Shown one piece after another: positions 545 through 33,824 of a stretch of DNA of 35,951 bases. This stretch comes from a virus, in the IMG/VR virus record IMGVR_UViG_3300028864_000059, positions 1 through 35,951 of that record, one strand, 5' to 3'. The position numbers and the translations under genes were made by a program. Each line of letters starts with the position of its first letter. Position 1 is the stretch's first letter. The notes under the pieces are model-generated. The model was given only the letters and a program-made list of their open reading frames with translations. It had not been told where the DNA came from and did not search any database.

Positions 545-759
545 GTAATTTAGTAGAATCAATCGCCTTAATGCAGGCTGAGATATCTGAGTTGAGAAGA
601 ATACTTGGATGCTTGAATTTATTTTCTTTCGATAAGAAATATGATACATTTGTGGAGTTCTCGGATGGTACAGGAACGAGTTCCATGGTATTTGAAAACG
701 TTAAAAGGTTACATTTAAGAATAGAAGAACTTGAAAAATCAATACCTAAAAACTTATGA
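541..759 (+). CDS. 72-aa small helical protein, unknown function
   Basis: This 72-residue ORF has heptad-like segments at both ends (VESIALMQAEISELRRIL at residues 5-22 and VKRLHLRIEELEKSI near the C-terminus) around a polar middle, suggesting a short coiled-coil protein. It is coupled on both sides: its ATG overlaps the 26-aa ORF and its TGA overlaps the ATG of the GIY-YIG gene at 756. No enzyme motif is seen. A longer antisense frame over the same bases (495-767) lacks such context and was rejected. Confidence 0.6.
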   Translation: MSNLVESIALMQAEISELRRILGCLNLFSFDKKYDTFVEFSDGTGTSSMVFENVKRLHLRIEELEKSIPKNL

Positions 760-1757
760 AACCTCACGACAAACTTCAGTCCGACAATAATGCTTACGTA
801 TATTTACATATAGATATTGCAACTGATGACGTGTTTTATGTTGGAATAAGTAATAATAACGATGGAGGCAAATATAATAGGGCAAATAGAATACATAGTA
901 GGAGTAGATTTTGGAATAACTATACAAAGCTTAACGGTTTTAAAATTGAAATATACAAAGACAATATTAGTTGGAAAGAAGCTTGCAAATTAGAAAATGA
1001 ACTTATTATCAAATTTGGTAGAAGGGATATTAAAACTGGAAATTTGGTAAATCTAACTAATGGAGGAGAGGGGTTTATAGGACACTCAAAAGAAATGAAA
1101 AAATCTCTATCTATAGGGACTAAAAAATCATGGGCTGATGGGAAGATGGATATTTTACTGAAAAAAATATATAAATATTCTGATAATGGAGAGTTAGTAA
1201 GCAGTTTTAATTCAATTAAAGAAGCTGAAAAGGAAACTAAAATCTGTAGAACAGAAATATCTGCATGCGTAAATAATAAGCGACTAAGGGCTGGAGGTTA
1301 TTTTTGGTCTTTTGAAAACAGTGGAGTTAAAGTGCCAGAACTTAAACCAAGAGGGTGGAGTGGAAAGGTTGGTATAGTTGGGTATGATATAATTACAGAA
1401 AAAGTATATACATTTGCATCCGAAAAAGAGGCAGAGATTTATTTTAAAATATCGGGGTTGTCCACAAGTATATGTAAATGCATTCATGGTGAAACAGAAA
1501 GGGCAAATGATATTATATGGTACAACTCAGAACACGACAGTAATTTAGCACTGATAAAGAGAGCTTCTATTCGAGGAGAAAGAATGATTGTCAGGATTGA
1601 TAAACTTAATAATATAGAGATATTCAACAACCTTAAAGACGCCTGCTTTCTCACAAATGGAATAGATTTTAGAAACGTTTCTGCTTGTACATTTGGGAAA
1701 CAGAAAACAGCATACGGATATAAATGGAAAAAATTAAAAGATTATGAAAGAGCATGA
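756..1757 (+). CDS. GIY-YIG homing endonuclease with NUMOD-type DNA-binding repeats
   Basis: A 333-aa free-standing homing endonuclease. The GIY-YIG nuclease domain covers about residues 13-110: YVY at 14-16, YVG at 28-30, Arg-rich RANRIHSRSRFW at 42-53, acidic KLENE at 78-82 and NLTNGGEG at 99-106, the usual end of the domain. Three NUMOD1/IENR1-like repeats follow at about 138-187, 206-256 and 277-326, each with a strand, a helix containing 'KEAEK' or similar and a closing aromatic-rich strand (GGYFWSF, GYKWKKL); these should bind the target site. Residues 1-8 (MKPHDKLQ) nearly copy the start of the next gene (MKEHDTLQ). It overlaps both neighbours (ATGA at 756; 14 nt with the gene at 1744), so it was inserted without breaking the operon. 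It is lower in G+C than the packaging genes. Confidence 0.9.
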   Translation: MKPHDKLQSDNNAYVYLHIDIATDDVFYVGISNNNDGGKYNRANRIHSRSRFWNNYTKLNGFKIEIYKDNISWKEACKLENELIIKFGRRDIKTGNLVNLTNGGEGFIGHSKEMKKSLSIGTKKSWADGKMDILLKKIYKYSDNGELVSSFNSIKEAEKETKICRTEISACVNNKRLRAGGYFWSFENSGVKVPELKPRGWSGKVGIVGYDIITEKVYTFASEKEAEIYFKISGLSTSICKCIHGETERANDIIWYNSEHDSNLALIKRASIRGERMIVRIDKLNNIEIFNNLKDACFLTNGIDFRNVSACTFGKQKTAYGYKWKKLKDYERA

Positions 1758-2143: not shown

Positions 2144-2235
2144 TACATGTTGCTTCATGTAAAACTAATTTATAAGTCCCTTAGAGTAAGTCAGGAAGCA
2201 GCAATTTCCTACTGAAATTTGGGACTATTTTTTAT
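2144..2235 (+). ncRNA. Structured RNA or leader ending in a terminator-like hairpin
   Basis: Directly after the promoter-like boxes lie a small hairpin ACATG-TTGCTT-CATGT (2144-2159) and a compound hairpin. The outer stem is AGTCCC (2175-2180) with GGGACT (2221-2226). The inner stem is AGT-c-AGGAA (2189-2197) with TTCCTACT (2206-2213), with one bulged C and an eight-base loop. Six T residues follow at 2228-2233. Promoter, folded body and T-tract describe either a small RNA of about 90 nt or an attenuating leader, since the HNH gene starts at 2237. No known RNA family was recognised. Confidence 0.5.
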
Positions 2236-2236
2236 T

Positions 2237-2787
2237 ATGGAAGAAATAGAAGTTTGGAAAGATATCCCTAATTACGAGGGGTATTATCAAGTTAGTAATT
2301 TAGGCAGGGTAAAAGGGTTAAAAAGGACTGTTCCTTTAATGTATGGACGTTACAGAGTCAATAATGAGAAAATTATAAAGCTACCTATAGATAGCCACGG
2401 ATATTTAAAATGTAGTTTATGTAAAAACGGTATTGCAACCACAGAAAAAGCTCACGCCCTTGTGGCGATAGCATTTTTAGGACATATACCTAATGGTAAC
2501 ATTATAGTTATAGACCACATTAACGGATGTAAAACTGATAATATGGTTAGTAACTTGCAGATAGTAACTCATAGAGAAATACATCTACTTGTTTTAGAAA
2601 ACTAGAAGATACTTTTTCGAGTCAATATCTAGGAGTTTCTTGGGATAAGCATGCTAAAAAATGTGTTTCTAAAATTAGGGTTAATGGAGAATCAAAGTAT
2701 TTAGGTTATTTTTATACTGGAATCGAAGCATCTGATGCGTATCAAAAAGCTTTTAAAAATTTACTTAGTGTTCAAATTAAAAAATAA
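2237..2787 (+). pseudogene. HNH homing endonuclease (NUMOD4-HNH-AP2-like), frameshifted
   Basis: From ATG 2237 the frame encodes a NUMOD4 domain (EVWKDIPNYEGYYQVSNLGR) and an HNH nuclease core (AHALVAIAFLGH, then DHINGCKTDN and NLQIVTHRE), then runs into a TAG at 2603-2605. Adding one A to the AAA run at 2577-2579 restores a continuous frame reading NTSTCFRKLEDTFSSQYLGV and continues into an AP2-like DNA-binding domain (SWDKHAKKCVSKIRVNG, YLGYFYTGIEASDAY) ending at TAA 2785-2787. That order is normal for phage HNH homing endonucleases. The gene sits between the VRR-NUC and small terminase genes. The apparent single-base loss may be a true inactivating mutation or a sequence error. An upstream in-frame ATG at 2219 lies in the terminator hairpin and was rejected as the start. 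Confidence 0.85.
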
Positions 2788-27987: not shown

Positions 27988-28738
27988 TTATTTAGTGTTA
28001 TTAATTCTTTCTTTTGCTATTTCAAAATATTTATCATCCATTTCAATACCGATAAAAGAGCGATTAAGATTTTTACAAGCTACTCCGGTAGTCCCGCTCC
28101 CCATTGTATTATCAAGAACTGTATCGCCTTCGTTAGTATAGGTTTTGATGAGATACTCTAAAAGCAATACTGGTTTTTGAGTAGGATGATGAAATTTTCC
28201 AGTCTCATGTTCTTTTGGTATTGATATTATTGAAGTAGGGAACTTCTCATCTGATACGATTGTTGGAGTTTCTACAAAACTACCATAGCAACTATTCTTT
28301 TGAGGATTCAACATATTACCCTTACTATGATTTCTTTTATGAGGTTCGCATTTAACCATTTGAGGATTATATGTGGGTAGTGATTTATAGAATATGCAAA
28401 TATCCTCATGTTGTCTAAGTTGCATTCTTTTTGAATTTAAGAATCCAGTTTTAGCAACCTTATCCCATACTAAATTATATCTCCATAATTTCTTATTACT
28501 CATTAATAGGTCTGCAGTAAACATCCCCTGACCAAATAAAACTACGATTCCATTGTCTTTAATAACTCGTTCGTAGTTCTCCCATAATCTATCAAAAGGA
28601 ATTACAGAATCCCATTTAGCTGAACTGTTTCCTTTATTTAATACCCCCATACGGCAAATCGCAAATTATTGCATCAATACTCTTATCGGGTATACTCTGC
28701 ATCTCAATCAGGCAATCGCCTTTAATTAGTTTTTTCAT
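27988..28738 (-). pseudogene. DNA N4/N6 methyltransferase, beta-class, frameshifted at DPPY
   Basis: ATG 28736-28738 overlaps the primase stop. The first frame gives KKLIKGDCLIEMQSIPDKS and IDAIICDLPYG, the catalytic DPPY-type motif (DLPY), then ends after GIK at a TAA. Removing one G from the GGGGG run (forward-strand C run 28644-28648) joins it to VLNKGNSSAKWDSVIPF and the rest, ending at 27988. Later motifs are FHHPTQKPVLLLEYLIKTY and TVLDNTMGSGTTGVACKNL (AdoMet-binding motif I after the DPPY motif, thus beta order), then FIGIEMDDKYFEIAKERI. Such enzymes methylate adenine N6 or cytosine N4 and protect phage DNA from restriction. An ATG at 28648-28650 opens the second frame, but that product would lack DLPY. 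Confidence 0.88.
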
Positions 28739-30984
28739 AAATTTATATCCGTTTCTGTCATTAATTCAATATGATAGCTCTTAATATACGTATTCATTAT
28801 TAGTCTTGTTTCAGGCTCAAATCCCATACTACCCAAAATATCCTGAATATGTGTAAGATCTGTATTTACTCTTGCATATCCTGCATAAAACGCTATGCCT
28901 TTTGAAATTTGAGTAAGTGTAAGCGTTTTATTTGGATTGTCAATAGGAGCTCTAAAATGCTCGGCCAATATTTGTTCTTCAAGTACGCTTACTTTATAAA
29001 GTAAGTTTCGTTCTTCACGTCTTTGTCTTTCCTCAATCGTCAAATCCCATTCAAAATATTCACTGTGATATTTATGCCATGCTTGACCCCAAAGTCTATG
29101 AATATCCAATTCCTTGAATAAATTCATATCAAGCATTTTTACTTTAAATATAATCCATCGGGTATTAATATCATCCTTTAAAAACTCTGTTCTGTTTGAA
29201 CTTCCAAAGAATGAACATCTACGATACATCTTTACTTTTTGTTCTCCGTAAGGCAATCTGACGTTAACCGAATACTTTGCTAACGTGCTTTTCAATTTAC
29301 CTAACCCACCAACTTTATCAAAATCATCAAGGTCATCAAGGTTATAAATAAAAGTTTCCGTTAAAGTGATTTGCGTGTCCTTATCGCCCGTTAATGTCTC
29401 TTCTGTGTAATAGTTGTCACCAAATGGATTTAAGTACCGTATAAAGCGGGATTTACCTGTTTCCTGTGCTCTATTCTCGAATACCATAACTACACGATTA
29501 TAAAAGCTATCATCTAATGCGCATTTGATGGCTCTAACAAATTGTTTTTCCATCATAGTTACAAAGAACTGCCTATCATCGGTAACTACATAATCGGCTA
29601 ATAGTTCAAAGTAGTTTACTCCATCCCACTTAGCAAGGGAATTAAAATAGGCTTCAAATGGGTTGTAATCGGGTACGTATCGAGAACCGATTAGGCATTT
29701 GATGGCGTCTTTACGAAAATCAATTCCGTTATGCTGCAAGTCAAGATATAAGTTATTCGATTCACATAATTCCCAATCATTTAAACTTCCTTTTGGTTTA
29801 TATTCAATTTTATGGGTTATTACATCTCTACGAAAATCATATAACGAGTCCAAAAAATTCATTGCGTAATCAATTCGTGGAATCTTCTTCTGTGTTTTTT
29901 CTTCACCTGTCATCCTTGAATCAATGTTCTTTATCTTATTCTCTGTTTCAAGAATAAAGTTCGGTATGTTTACATTTTCATTTTGCATCTCTGGTTTTAT
30001 AGGTGGAAATTCAACTCGCTTTATAGTTTTCATTACTTCTCTCGGTTCTTTATACGTTCCTTCTTCTTTTGCAAGCTCAATAACCGATTGAGTATAATCT
30101 CCAGCATAAGCTAAAGTAGTCCTAACCGCCAATGGTGTATAACCTCGATTCTCTTCAAATGGATGTGCGTTGGAGCTAAATACATAAAATTGTGGTATTC
30201 CGGCACGAGATACTACTTTTCCAAGCGTTGCAGATATTCCATCTGATAATTTCTTATCAGGTCTTGCGCAGTTAATACCGTCCTTTGCAAATGTCCAACC
30301 GTTTTGAATTAATAGTTGTCTACATTCATTTACTGCGTGAGATGATGAATTGTATCTATCGCCCACCTTATCGCCTACTCCGTAGTTATTAGTTTCAGCA
30401 ATACTTGCTGGCTGCTCATATTCTTTCTCAATTATCTCATTATACTTTTGGCATTCGGCAATAATAAAATCACGCTCTTCTTTGGTAATGATTGGCATCT
30501 CGGAAAAAGAACCAGCCTGCATTACATAATTATCAGATGGATTGACAATAGTATATCCACCTTCTCCTTTTGTTTCAATAAGCGAAGTAGGACGACCAGC
30601 CACGGGATCGTAAGCCATTGCTAATTTTCTGCTACCTTCAATTGGTTCTTCACAGCGATAAAACACGTGGTAGCCATCGCTCCTCGTTTTCTCCCAAGGC
30701 AGATTAAAAGTATCAATTATTGACTTAAAGTTAGAAAATAGATTTAATGCTGTATGTAAGTGATTATCAAAGTCTAAGCACTCTAAATTTCCTGATACTT
30801 TGCCAAAAATAATTGCGATATTAAAGTCACCGCAGAATGCTCTGTCTACTTCTTCATTTGTGAGCATGAAGGACTGAAGACGCTTCCAAGATTCGATTGA
30901 TGGTCGCTTTTGCTCTTTGTTTATTGGGAGGACTGAGTAGCCGAGAGAAATGTAGGATTTGGCTGTTGCGATTAAGTTTGGCAT
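28735..30984 (-). CDS. Primase-polymerase fused to a VapE-type helicase
   Basis: 749 aa. The N-terminal AEP/prim-pol domain (about 1-185) shows SLGYSVLPINKEQKRPSI, ECLDFDN with catalytic Asp71 and Asp73, DGYHVFYR with His106, and IETKGEGGYTIVNPSDNY (136-153). A linker follows to about 370. The C-terminal virulence-associated E-like, SF3-related ATPase has YFNSLAKWDGVNYFELLADY (446-465), Walker A NRAQETGKSRFI (504-515), acidic NLDDLDDFD (548-556) and the FFGSSNRTEFLKDD sensor (592-605). The protein probably primes and unwinds phage DNA. It overlaps the methyltransferase start by four bases (ATGA). Confidence 0.9.
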   Translation of the reverse strand: MPNLIATAKSYISLGYSVLPINKEQKRPSIESWKRLQSFMLTNEEVDRAFCGDFNIAIIFGKVSGNLECLDFDNHLHTALNLFSNFKSIIDTFNLPWEKTRSDGYHVFYRCEEPIEGSRKLAMAYDPVAGRPTSLIETKGEGGYTIVNPSDNYVMQAGSFSEMPIITKEERDFIIAECQKYNEIIEKEYEQPASIAETNNYGVGDKVGDRYNSSSHAVNECRQLLIQNGWTFAKDGINCARPDKKLSDGISATLGKVVSRAGIPQFYVFSSNAHPFEENRGYTPLAVRTTLAYAGDYTQSVIELAKEEGTYKEPREVMKTIKRVEFPPIKPEMQNENVNIPNFILETENKIKNIDSRMTGEEKTQKKIPRIDYAMNFLDSLYDFRRDVITHKIEYKPKGSLNDWELCESNNLYLDLQHNGIDFRKDAIKCLIGSRYVPDYNPFEAYFNSLAKWDGVNYFELLADYVVTDDRQFFVTMMEKQFVRAIKCALDDSFYNRVVMVFENRAQETGKSRFIRYLNPFGDNYYTEETLTGDKDTQITLTETFIYNLDDLDDFDKVGGLGKLKSTLAKYSVNVRLPYGEQKVKMYRRCSFFGSSNRTEFLKDDINTRWIIFKVKMLDMNLFKELDIHRLWGQAWHKYHSEYFEWDLTIEERQRREERNLLYKVSVLEEQILAEHFRAPIDNPNKTLTLTQISKGIAFYAGYARVNTDLTHIQDILGSMGFEPETRLIMNTYIKSYHIELMTETDINL

Positions 30985-31208: not shown

Positions 31209-33689
31209 TTATGTGCGAATTCCCTGCGCCTTGTATCGAGCCATAACAACGTATGGCCAATTAGCTGCTAAATTATGCATTTTTTGATATTCAATCAACC
31301 CATCTTTACCGTATTTAATAAATACCTGACGAAACAACCAGTTTTTTGAATACCCTTTCGCTTCAGAGTAAATCTCGTAATCTTTAATTGATTCAAGTTT
31401 TTTTACCGCTTCAGAATAACTAATTTCGACCAAATCAACAATCTTCTGTTCATGTGTTACAGGAAAAACATAGCCGCAGTATTTACATATTCTTGATGAA
31501 GCATGGATTAATGCGCCACATTTAGGACAGTCCTTTACTGCACCAACTCCGCATCCTTCCTTTTTGGATTCCTCGTGAGTTAGTGACCATTCTCTTTGTT
31601 GTCTATAATATCCAAGTCTTGAACAATTATCGCCAAAGTCTAATAAATTAAAGTGAGTTTTGTTTTTAAAGATACGGCTGCCACGCCCTTCCATTTGTTG
31701 TAAAAGGTTACTCGACATTGTAGCTCTGTTTATTATTACCGTTTCAATAGGTGGATGATCAAATCCAGTGGTTGCGATTCCGGCATTTATTAGGACATGA
31801 AATTCACCATCTTTCCACTGTTGTATGACATCTTTTCTTTTACCGGAAAAGGATTCAAAGCTAACTAAATAATTCTCATATTCCAAAACTTTAATGTTAT
31901 ATTTTGCAATATCTCCTTTAGTCGCCTTTTCGTCAGGTATTTGTGGCTTTGCTAAATCTGATACAATGAACTTTGATTTTATTCCTGCATCGTTTAATGC
32001 CTTGCAAGTATTGATTGAATGCTGAATATTGCAACAGAATACCAATGTAATTGTATTCGGGCAAAGTCGCTTCCAATTGTCAATAACTCCTGAATAAAGT
32101 TCAGACTTATTATATCGGTTAAACATTTCTGATGAGTCAAATTCGCCTTTACTGACTGAAACGCCTTTCATATCAACAGGGATTGAGTAGTATTTGTCAG
32201 GGACTAAATAGCCAAGATTGATTAACTGCTGGACATCGAGACCGATAACAATATCCTCATAGTCTTGGCTAAGTTGTCTTTGCTTACCACTTCTTTCGGG
32301 AGTTGCGGTAAATCCTAATATAAACTTCTCTTTAGTCAATGGAATTTCAAATATACGATTGAATAACTGCTCATGGCAATTCCCAGATACAAAAGTAAAT
32401 CCATTGTGCCTAACAACTATTGCTCCCGATGGAACTTCTACGCAATAAACCATCCCATTGTAACTATCTTTTTTAACAGACATTAATTGTGTAGCCTTGT
32501 GAATTATGTCTCTACGCATATATAGCCTGTGCGTATCTTTATATCTTTCCTGCCTATCATCTTTTTGAATAGACATAAAACAACAAAATCCAGCAAGTGT
32601 GGCTACAGAATTATAAAAGTCTGCCTGTGTTTTATCTGTAGATGAATAATACAACATTGTTTTATTTGGAGTATGACCATCCCATAAAGCGCATTCTTCA
32701 ATTACTTGCTTTGCTTTAGTAGCAGACATTGGGTACGGAATGTGATTTCTAATGTCTTTAGTTGTTCCAATTGGCATTCTTGCCATGTATCTTTCACCGT
32801 GATTACACTCTACTTTTACAACCTCAATATCGCAGCTTTTGCATAGAGATAAAAACCTATCAATTTTCCTTTTTTTACTAAATGCAAAAGCTATTATAGT
32901 ATGGTTTATTGCTTTGTAATGCATACTTCCATCGGCTTGTGTGGCTATATATAATCTTTCTAAATCAGTCAATTCATCGCATTCAATATTAGAAAGTCCA
33001 GAGACAGGAAGTAGTTTTGTATAATTGAATTTAATCTCTGATATTTTATTTTTATAGTACCCATTTTTACGGCTATACAACAACTGTTCGTGACCGCAAG
33101 TCATTGGAACATCAATACCGTGTTTAACGTGGAATATACTCATTTCTCCTGTATGCTCCTTCTGTATGTATCTCGTAGGGTTTACAAAAGAAATATTTCC
33201 ATTATCGAATTGAGCTACTTTTTTAGATTTATCCAATCTATCGAATTTAATAAACCCATTCTCTGTCAGTAATTCTGTATCGGCTGTAAAGCATTCATCA
33301 TTTATAACCAAGTTTACCGACTTATACCATTCAATCCACTCTGGTTGCTTTAATCGTCTAATGACTGTCTCAATCATGCCTACTACTAATTTATCTTTAG
33401 GTGGGTGTTTTACATCTCTAGTAACAAGTGAGGGGAATAGTCCAATTTCAACAAGAGAACCTCCAGTTTGTGACAATAATTCCTCTCTGTGTGTAAGAAT
33501 AAGTACAGTTGATCCTTTTTTTTCTGCTTTATTTGCTATATCACTGAAAATTCGGGTCTTACCTGAACCCGTTGGAGATTGAACTAATATACTTTTTTTA
33601 TTCCCATCTAAGCGATTTGATTTTTCATTCCACTTTTTATATATTTGGGTTTCAATTTCTTTCTGATAATCACGAAGTATGATAGACAT
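31209..33689 (-). CDS. DECH-box DNA helicase interrupted by an intein
   Basis: 826 aa from ATG 33689 (an 11-codon TTG extension to 33722 is less likely). The exteins form an SF2 helicase of about 521 aa: Walker A SPTGSGKTRIF, LILTHREELLSQTG (motif Ia), VNLVINDE|CHEQLF (motif II, DECH), GFTATPERSGK (motif III region), VLINAGIATTGFDHPP and LLQQMEGRGSRIFKNK (motif VI). A zinc ribbon CPKCGALIH and CKYCGYVF ends the protein. The 305-aa intein splits motif II between Glu and Cys. It likely unwinds or remodels DNA in replication or recombination. A structured leader precedes it. Confidence 0.92.
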   Translation of the reverse strand: MSIILRDYQKEIETQIYKKWNEKSNRLDGNKKSILVQSPTGSGKTRIFSDIANKAEKKGSTVLILTHREELLSQTGGSLVEIGLFPSLVTRDVKHPPKDKLVVGMIETVIRRLKQPEWIEWYKSVNLVINDECFTADTELLTENGFIKFDRLDKSKKVAQFDNGNISFVNPTRYIQKEHTGEMSIFHVKHGIDVPMTCGHEQLLYSRKNGYYKNKISEIKFNYTKLLPVSGLSNIECDELTDLERLYIATQADGSMHYKAINHTIIAFAFSKKRKIDRFLSLCKSCDIEVVKVECNHGERYMARMPIGTTKDIRNHIPYPMSATKAKQVIEECALWDGHTPNKTMLYYSSTDKTQADFYNSVATLAGFCCFMSIQKDDRQERYKDTHRLYMRRDIIHKATQLMSVKKDSYNGMVYCVEVPSGAIVVRHNGFTFVSGNCHEQLFNRIFEIPLTKEKFILGFTATPERSGKQRQLSQDYEDIVIGLDVQQLINLGYLVPDKYYSIPVDMKGVSVSKGEFDSSEMFNRYNKSELYSGVIDNWKRLCPNTITLVFCCNIQHSINTCKALNDAGIKSKFIVSDLAKPQIPDEKATKGDIAKYNIKVLEYENYLVSFESFSGKRKDVIQQWKDGEFHVLINAGIATTGFDHPPIETVIINRATMSSNLLQQMEGRGSRIFKNKTHFNLLDFGDNCSRLGYYRQQREWSLTHEESKKEGCGVGAVKDCPKCGALIHASSRICKYCGYVFPVTHEQKIVDLVEISYSEAVKKLESIKDYEIYSEAKGYSKNWLFRQVFIKYGKDGLIEYQKMHNLAANWPYVVMARYKAQGIRT
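32379..33293 (-). mobile_element. Intein with LAGLIDADG-type homing domain in the helicase DECH box
   Basis: 305 aa from Cys (after NDE) to Asn (before CH). Block A is CFTADTELLTENGF; block B is VPMTCGHEQLLYS with the T-x-x-H form; the DOD endonuclease block C-like motif is LYIATQADGS; blocks F and G read VYCVEVPSGAIVVRHNGF and TFVSGN. Penultimate residue is Gly instead of the usual His, which some active inteins also have. The first downstream residue is Cys. Splicing would restore NDECH exactly. Only one clear DOD motif is seen, so the endonuclease may be reduced. Confidence 0.9.
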
Positions 33690-33824
33690 TGGCGAAGTTT
33701 TACAGATAAAAATAGCCCTCAAACTTAGTCACTGAGGTTCAACGTTCAGATCAAAGAAAGGGGGCTTATAAGTCTTAATTGCTTTAAGTTGAACCGCAAT
33801 TATGTAAGCACAAAGATAGTAAAA
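33690..33824 (-). promoter_or_regulatory. Helicase leader with -7-like box and inverted repeat
   Basis: On the minus strand TATCTTTG (33818 to 33811) is a perfect TAnnTTTG, without a clear -33 box. It would start RNA near 33804, about 115 nt before the helicase ATG. In the leader GGTTCAAC and GTTGAACC (33736-33743 and 33788-33795) form an 8-bp stem around 44 bases that hold smaller hairpins (CTTAA/TTAAG and the palindrome CTTATAAG). Confidence 0.45.

Follow-up and report, generated by a model that had tools for sequence, protein, structure and literature searches.

The insertion in the helicase gene of this phage is very probably a mobile intein that is able to splice and whose LAGLIDADG homing endonuclease is intact, situated at the Walker B DE|CH site of a RadD-like SF2 helicase in a Bacteroidota phage; the assignment draws on sequence comparison and on predicted structures. 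The window, an entire IMG/VR record of 35,951 bases, had been described in an earlier note as carrying an intein that splits motif II and could act as a switch for replication. The intein and its position stand. The switch is not supported, since the host is RadD-like, the penultimate Gly is the norm of the family and a primase-helicase gene adjoins the host gene.

Insertion site, Hint fold and endonuclease

The host gene is a single open frame on the minus strand (31,209–33,722, 837 amino acids from a TTG), and its homologues align starting at an in-frame ATG at 33,689. Counted from this ATG, the N-extein has 132 amino acids (33,294–33,689, minus strand) and runs from the Walker A sequence PTGSGKT through the NDE of motif II. 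The intein follows (32,379–33,293, minus strand) with 305 amino acids, or 915 bp, from Cys1 to Asn305; it occupies residues 144–448 of the 837-residue frame, in frame, and ends in Ser-Gly-Asn. The C-extein (31,209–32,378, minus strand) starts with CHEQ and holds the helicase C domain and a C-terminal zinc ribbon, the latter a weak Pfam match. The junction codons, AAT GAT GAA | TGC ... GGG AAT | TGC CAT GAG, and the translation place the intein to the base between Glu and Cys of NDE|CH, exactly where the earlier note had put it. Once the intein is taken out NDECHEQ remains, which aligns with the DEAH/DECH motif II of 82 insert-free phage helicases. All splice residues are present (Cys1, T65-C-G-H68, Gly304, Asn305 and Cys+1), in agreement with the Cys1, T-x-x-H block, penultimate Gly and terminal Asn reported before. 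Chance is excluded because full-length alignments to relatives in more than 100 phage records put the junctions at identical residues, and because an exact empty site exists. At 34% G+C, the intein hardly differs from the exteins (35%) or the window (36%). Based on the role of motif II (Walker B), the unspliced precursor should lack ATPase activity, which supports the earlier suggestion that the helicase is inactive before splicing.

An AlphaFold model of the intein, from a run built on 39 window and locus sequences (pLDDT 96.7, pTM 0.93), has a Hint splicing domain interrupted by a two-motif LAGLIDADG endonuclease. The two Hint halves are joined at Cys1 and the C-terminal Asn. The N-terminal half (residues ~1–98; 33,000–33,293, minus strand) carries Cys1 and T65xxH68, while the C-terminal half (residues 268–305; 32,379–32,492, minus strand) carries blocks F and G. 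In the latter, block F Cys284 (32,442–32,444, minus strand) lies at F:4, the position of the class 3 nucleophile, and the penultimate Gly304 and terminal Asn305 occupy 32,379–32,384 (minus strand). The endonuclease domain spans residues ~108–262 (32,508–32,972, minus strand). Its first DOD motif is RLYIATQADG (residues 113–122; 32,928–32,957, minus strand) with acid D121, and its second is VIEECALWDG (residues 197–206; 32,676–32,705, minus strand) with acid D205, both within the endonuclease fold. Only one DOD motif had been thought plain. The second, EECALWDG, bears little resemblance to LAGLIDADG and was overlooked for that reason, yet its acid is kept in 107 of 109 scorable relatives. A degenerate endonuclease was considered and rejected, as the fold and both motifs are intact, the second in the form ExxxWD.

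Close folds in the PDB are those of the TliVMA intein (7qss, Z 21.6) and PI-PfuI (Z 20.2), while the AceL NrdHF intein matches over the Hint part (Z 20.4) and dozens of inteins match at Z 14–21. The endonuclease resembles I-DmoI and PI-SceI. Matches to curated models fall below their cut-offs (22.3 against 35.8 bits for Pfam Intein_splicing, 18.4 against 24.5 bits for NCBIfam intein_Nterm), which are naming thresholds applied here to a divergent family. Because of this divergence, it is the fold and the junctions that decide the identity of the intein. Since a phmmer search of the intein against the PDB gave no match, profile and fold were used for that comparison.

The host helicase and its neighbourhood

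Pfam finds ResIII, Helicase_C and the weak zinc ribbon in the host protein. The best NCBIfam model is RadD (NF053632), and because the score of 88.9 bits is far under the strict equivalog cut-off of 720 bits, the protein is called RadD-like only. An intein-free relative (L006) matches RadD of the PDB in a sequence search (E 2.9e-22). In the model of this relative (pLDDT 83.4), two RecA-like domains carry motifs I, II, III and VI. RadD is also the best fold match of this model, with Z 28.7 over 336 residues; the next fold scores about 3 lower. The best structural and sequence match of the host is thus E. coli RadD (YejH; PDB 6jde, 7r7j), at 27% identity over 336 residues, from which the phage version differs in carrying an intein and in scoring far below the RadD equivalog cut-off. 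By family and modelled fold, the host protein belongs with the RadD-like SF2 helicases, which are of the type that acts in repair and recombination.

The earlier note had called it a replicative helicase, a reading now rejected on the grounds of family, fold and the neighbouring gene. This neighbour (28,735–30,984, minus strand) encodes an uninterrupted Prim-Pol/VapE primase-helicase, has a VapE-type relative with a solved structure (7pds) and appears the likelier replicative helicase. No DnaB_C domain is found within the 35,951-base record, the ends of which are possibly incomplete, so that further helicases may be encoded outside it. A second helicase in the genome, which the earlier note had itself proposed to look for as evidence against its view, is therefore present next door.

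The primase-helicase and the host helicase belong to an early block on the minus strand that also holds a YqaJ exonuclease, an SSB-like protein and an N6/N4 methylase; terminase, portal and tape measure genes are on the plus strand. Two homing-endonuclease-like genes lie beside the terminase genes, one of the NUMOD1/I-HmuI-like type (756–1,757, plus strand) and one of the NUMOD4-HNH type (2,219–2,605, plus strand). Named relatives of the helicase come from phages of Cellulophaga, Parabacteroides and Flavobacterium, and judged by these hosts the phage would belong to the Bacteroidota group. About 120 bases upstream of the helicase ATG, the sequence TATCTTTG (33,818–33,811, minus strand) fits the Bacteroidota -7 box consensus TAnnTTTG, and the match is in line with a Bacteroidota host. 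Compared with named phages at the DNA level, the right-hand 11 kb gave no match.

Splicing residues and mechanism across the family

The family alignment comprises 111 distinct inteins, and the counts that follow are over the sequences that could be scored at each position. Cys1 and His68 are each present in 110 of 110, the block F Cys at F:4 in 110 of 111 and the penultimate Gly in 108 of 108, while the first DOD acid (Asp or Glu) is found in 109 of 111 and the second DOD Asp in 107 of 109. An alignment of 13 sequences (A1) was too divergent for the collection scan, and narrower ones (A3, A4) worked; the Tenacibaculum phage PTm1 NrdB intein, used as a search seed, found two loci only. This intein, those of Staphylococcus phage NrdA and NAMPT and that of Pectobacterium phage phiTE NrdB are homologous end to end, at 27–33% identity. 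Like the window intein they have Cys1, the block F Cys, an ExxxWD second DOD motif and a terminal Gly-Asn, but they sit in other host genes at other sites, and some have Ser or Thr at +1. Mycobacteriophage TOPRIM inteins (Kelley et al. 2016, PMC5050341) are members of the same family (L024) at different insertion sites.

Other relatives extend the range of host genes. By eye, six of them (L240, L241, L248, L252, L256 and L262) are in DNA-polymerase-like frames, and several of these end in Gly-Gln, not Gly-Asn. Inteins of the ribonucleotide reductase (RNR) small subunit in PTm1 (L017), PA-SR01 (L018), L163, L219 and L237 are located at DE(N/A/S/T)|CH. This RNR site lies between two metal-ligand residues, and its context resembles the DE|CH of the helicase.

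The invariance of the penultimate Gly bears directly on the rate of splicing. Penultimate His, a common but not universal class 1 feature, is replaced by Gly304 in the window intein, and slow splicing had been expected from this. The mycobacteriophage Bethlehem RDF intein, compared here through its published description, also has a penultimate Gly, at a different site; it is fully spliced at time zero with its native Gly, while the Gly-to-His mutant needs more than 5 h to reach about 50% splicing (PMC5050341). The AceL NrdHF intein, which lacks both the block F His and the penultimate His, splices within minutes (PMC7891396); its relation to the window family is distant (profile E 1.8e-9). Since Gly is the rule of the family and these two inteins behave as they do, Gly304 is no ground for expecting splicing to be slow or conditional.

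It is thus most improbable that the phage times the helicase through a penultimate residue other than His, by way of splicing that is slow or that responds to redox state, metal or temperature. The insertion is inside a catalytic motif, several Cys residues could be redox-sensitive, and conditional splicing is documented in other inteins, for example that of mycobacterial DnaB (PMC6195587). Against these points stand not only the family norm, the faster splicing of native Gly than of His in the one phage intein tested (PMC5050341) and the rapid splicing of AceL NrdHF without either C-terminal His (PMC7891396), but also the repair-type host with an uninterrupted primase-helicase beside it, and near relatives that manage without the intein. 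The same host and neighbour speak against the post-translational switch for replication that had been proposed. Splicing would instead be constitutive. Cys1 and/or block F Cys284 would act as the first nucleophile and Cys+1 as the second, and Asn305 would cyclise without a penultimate His to restore NDECHEQ.

An intein counts as class 3 when it lacks Cys1 and has Cys at the fourth position of block F (PMC7891396); the typical triplet is Trp-Cys-Thr, at B:12, F:4 and G:5. In the window intein Cys1 is present and, as in its family, invariant, with the F:4 Cys alongside. Because the triplet is Gln70-Cys284-Ser303, the intein is not filed as class 3, although it is not certain from these residues that it is plain class 1. 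A class 3 route, in which Cys284 starts splicing and Cys1 is dispensable, appears somewhat unlikely. In its favour, the block F Cys is near-invariant (110 of 111), and AceL NrdHF, linked by its profile match (E 1.8e-9), is a class 3 intein that uses the block F Cys with an MCT triplet; a relative in the RNR of Corynebacterium phage Darwin has Ala at position 1. However, all 110 scorable relatives keep Cys1, B:12 is Gln70 rather than Trp and G:5 is Ser rather than Thr. The Darwin intein (L292, in RNR beta) combines Ala at position 1 with the block F Cys and a Ser-Gly-Asn end, and is possibly class 3-like. AceL NrdHF (PDB 6zgq, PMC7891396) shares the Hint fold, the block F Cys and the lack of a penultimate His with the window intein and splices fast, but it is split, has no endonuclease and no Cys1, and resides in another host gene. 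It has been argued that class 3 could not derive directly from class 1 (PMC7664689). A family in which both nucleophiles are fixed, as the alignment suggests, offers a possible route to class 3. Inteins with mixed class signatures were reportedly described earlier by Tori and Perler in 2011.

Mobility and the Walker B clade

Two relatives (L006 and L007) have the helicase gene without an intein and with DEAH at the site, and DECH is found in 14 of the 82 intein-free relatives. Since the +1 Cys, which is required for splicing, is missing from these two empty alleles, it must have come with a transferred block or from a DECH ancestor. Four occupied contigs of the window helicase were found, two of which are identical to the window over the overlap, bar one gap. 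The other two match the window without a mismatch for about 1,300 bp, from the N-extein through to bp 834 of the intein, and differ from it by 9–13% in the C-extein. The zero-mismatch block common to the occupied alleles L004/L011 and L005/L009 spans 32,460–33,772 of the window. Its flanks differ by 8–16%, on both sides in L011 (upstream genes included) and on the C-extein side in L005. By eye, the gene that directly follows the helicase in L009 (5,131–6,087) resembles a cytosine DNA methyltransferase; the window has no such gene.

Occupied and empty alleles differ by 33% of nucleotides in the N-extein and by 23% over codons 1–80 of the C-extein, and by 7% thereafter. This peak around the insertion site is of the kind that co-conversion from a diverged donor would leave, and it shows that a block with the intein in it was transferred. 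We infer that the endonuclease drove this transfer. One breakpoint between the window and L005 falls inside the 3′ end of the intein, so two intein-bearing parents are needed there, and mosaic blocks can also arise by general phage recombination. It is nevertheless rather improbable that the intein is a passenger with an endonuclease no longer active, spread by ordinary mosaic recombination alone. The neighbouring genes are mosaic as well, one breakpoint is within the intein and empty alleles are common. However, the endonuclease retains both DOD acids and the entire fold is preserved, the identical block corresponds to N-extein plus intein amid mosaic backgrounds, and divergence from empty alleles is highest around the insertion site. 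With an active endonuclease, intein-free alleles would be cut at the GAY GAR|TGY CAY codons, and repair would copy the intein allele and its flanks into the gap; entry into a different ATPase gene bearing the same motif would be rare.

Phylogeny places the window intein among others at the same motif. In a first tree of 44 family members it groups with four others (support 98/99), all at Walker B DE|CH. In a tree of 63 inteins the clade has 23 members (98/94), all at DE|CH or DE|CQ, although the sequence fetch was seeded with DE|CH inteins and is enriched for them, and many inner branches are only moderately supported. Hosts, assigned by Pfam, PHROGs and PDB, include RadD-like helicases (window, L204), UvsW with its N-terminal domain (L198, L206), RecQ (L203, PDB E 9.4e-55), SNF2 (L201), a Helicase_C_2 protein of the DinG/XPD kind (L216), other ResIII helicases, a phage AAA+ clamp loader (L195, on the contig of L115) and a DnaX-like protein on a Clostridium sp. 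MAG contig (L270). The best starred subclade (100/96) mixes SF2 and AAA+ hosts. The inteins of the two RadD-like hosts are rejected as sisters (AU p 0.014, one of several pairs and uncorrected), while for the two UvsW hosts the AU p is 0.057; the addition of L222 to the clade of 23 is not rejected (AU p 0.243). The Walker B label changes 4 times on the tree, against a mean of 20.9 when shuffled. At the site only the codon-forced nucleotides, GAY GAR|TGY CA, are fixed, and the wobble bases are free. Because the clade spans host families, the RadD-like inteins are not sisters and only codon-forced bases are fixed, the lineage appears to follow the motif and not the gene. The site may be set either by DNA recognition or by what the exteins tolerate.

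These patterns lead us to a tentative proposal, to which we give a little less than an even chance. The endonuclease may recognise the Walker B codons GAY GAR|TGY CAY, so that one lineage could have colonised non-orthologous ATPases (RadD-, UvsW-, RecQ- and SNF2-like helicases and clamp loaders), and the family, in which neither Cys1 nor the block F Cys varies, may be a living intermediate between class 1 and class 3. That the Walker B inteins are instead independent insertions, kept where functional constraint lets few sites tolerate imprecise loss, seems distinctly improbable. In favour of independence, three or more further Walker B groups (L141/L158, PhoH L225/L233 and DE|CD) branch outside the clade, and inteins generally favour active sites (PMC5050341). 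Yet a single clade (98/94) unites 23 Walker B inteins from several host families and leaves other-site inteins outside, and the 4 label changes and the separation of the two RadD-like inteins (AU p 0.014) also argue for a lineage that follows the DECH codons. The tree did not unite all Walker B inteins in a single clade, as the 4 changes and the position of L141/L158 and the PhoH inteins outside show; a DE|CD intein in a ClpX-like protein is also elsewhere in the tree. In Prevotella phage Lak-A1 (L023), an intein of the same family sits at the Walker B of a ClpX-like AAA+ protein, LDE|CDKIA.

Inteins are enriched at the P-loop and active sites of ATPases (review PMC5874633; phage TerL, PMC5050341). 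Known ATPase active-site inteins likewise lie next to invariant catalytic residues, but, unlike this general enrichment, one clade here recurs at the same Walker B codons in both SF2 helicases and AAA+ clamp loaders. The phage clamp loader gene on the contig of L195 (L115, 1,010–4,066) is interrupted by two inteins: the P-loop region holds one, which has a LAGLIDADG_3 domain, and Walker B the other. A ResIII helicase (L213) likewise carries two.

What would keep the window intein at its site is the conserved motif, in which imprecise loss would destroy the enzyme, and not a role as a switch. By its sequence features the window intein itself is of an ordinary mobile kind, in a repair-type helicase, and its interest lies in the clade and in the active-site signature. 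Since Cys1 and the block F Cys are both kept, point mutants could be used to examine how class 3 splicing arose. If a selfish element follows a universal ATPase motif, jumps between unrelated genes become possible, and these would account for the way in which inteins reach new insertion sites.
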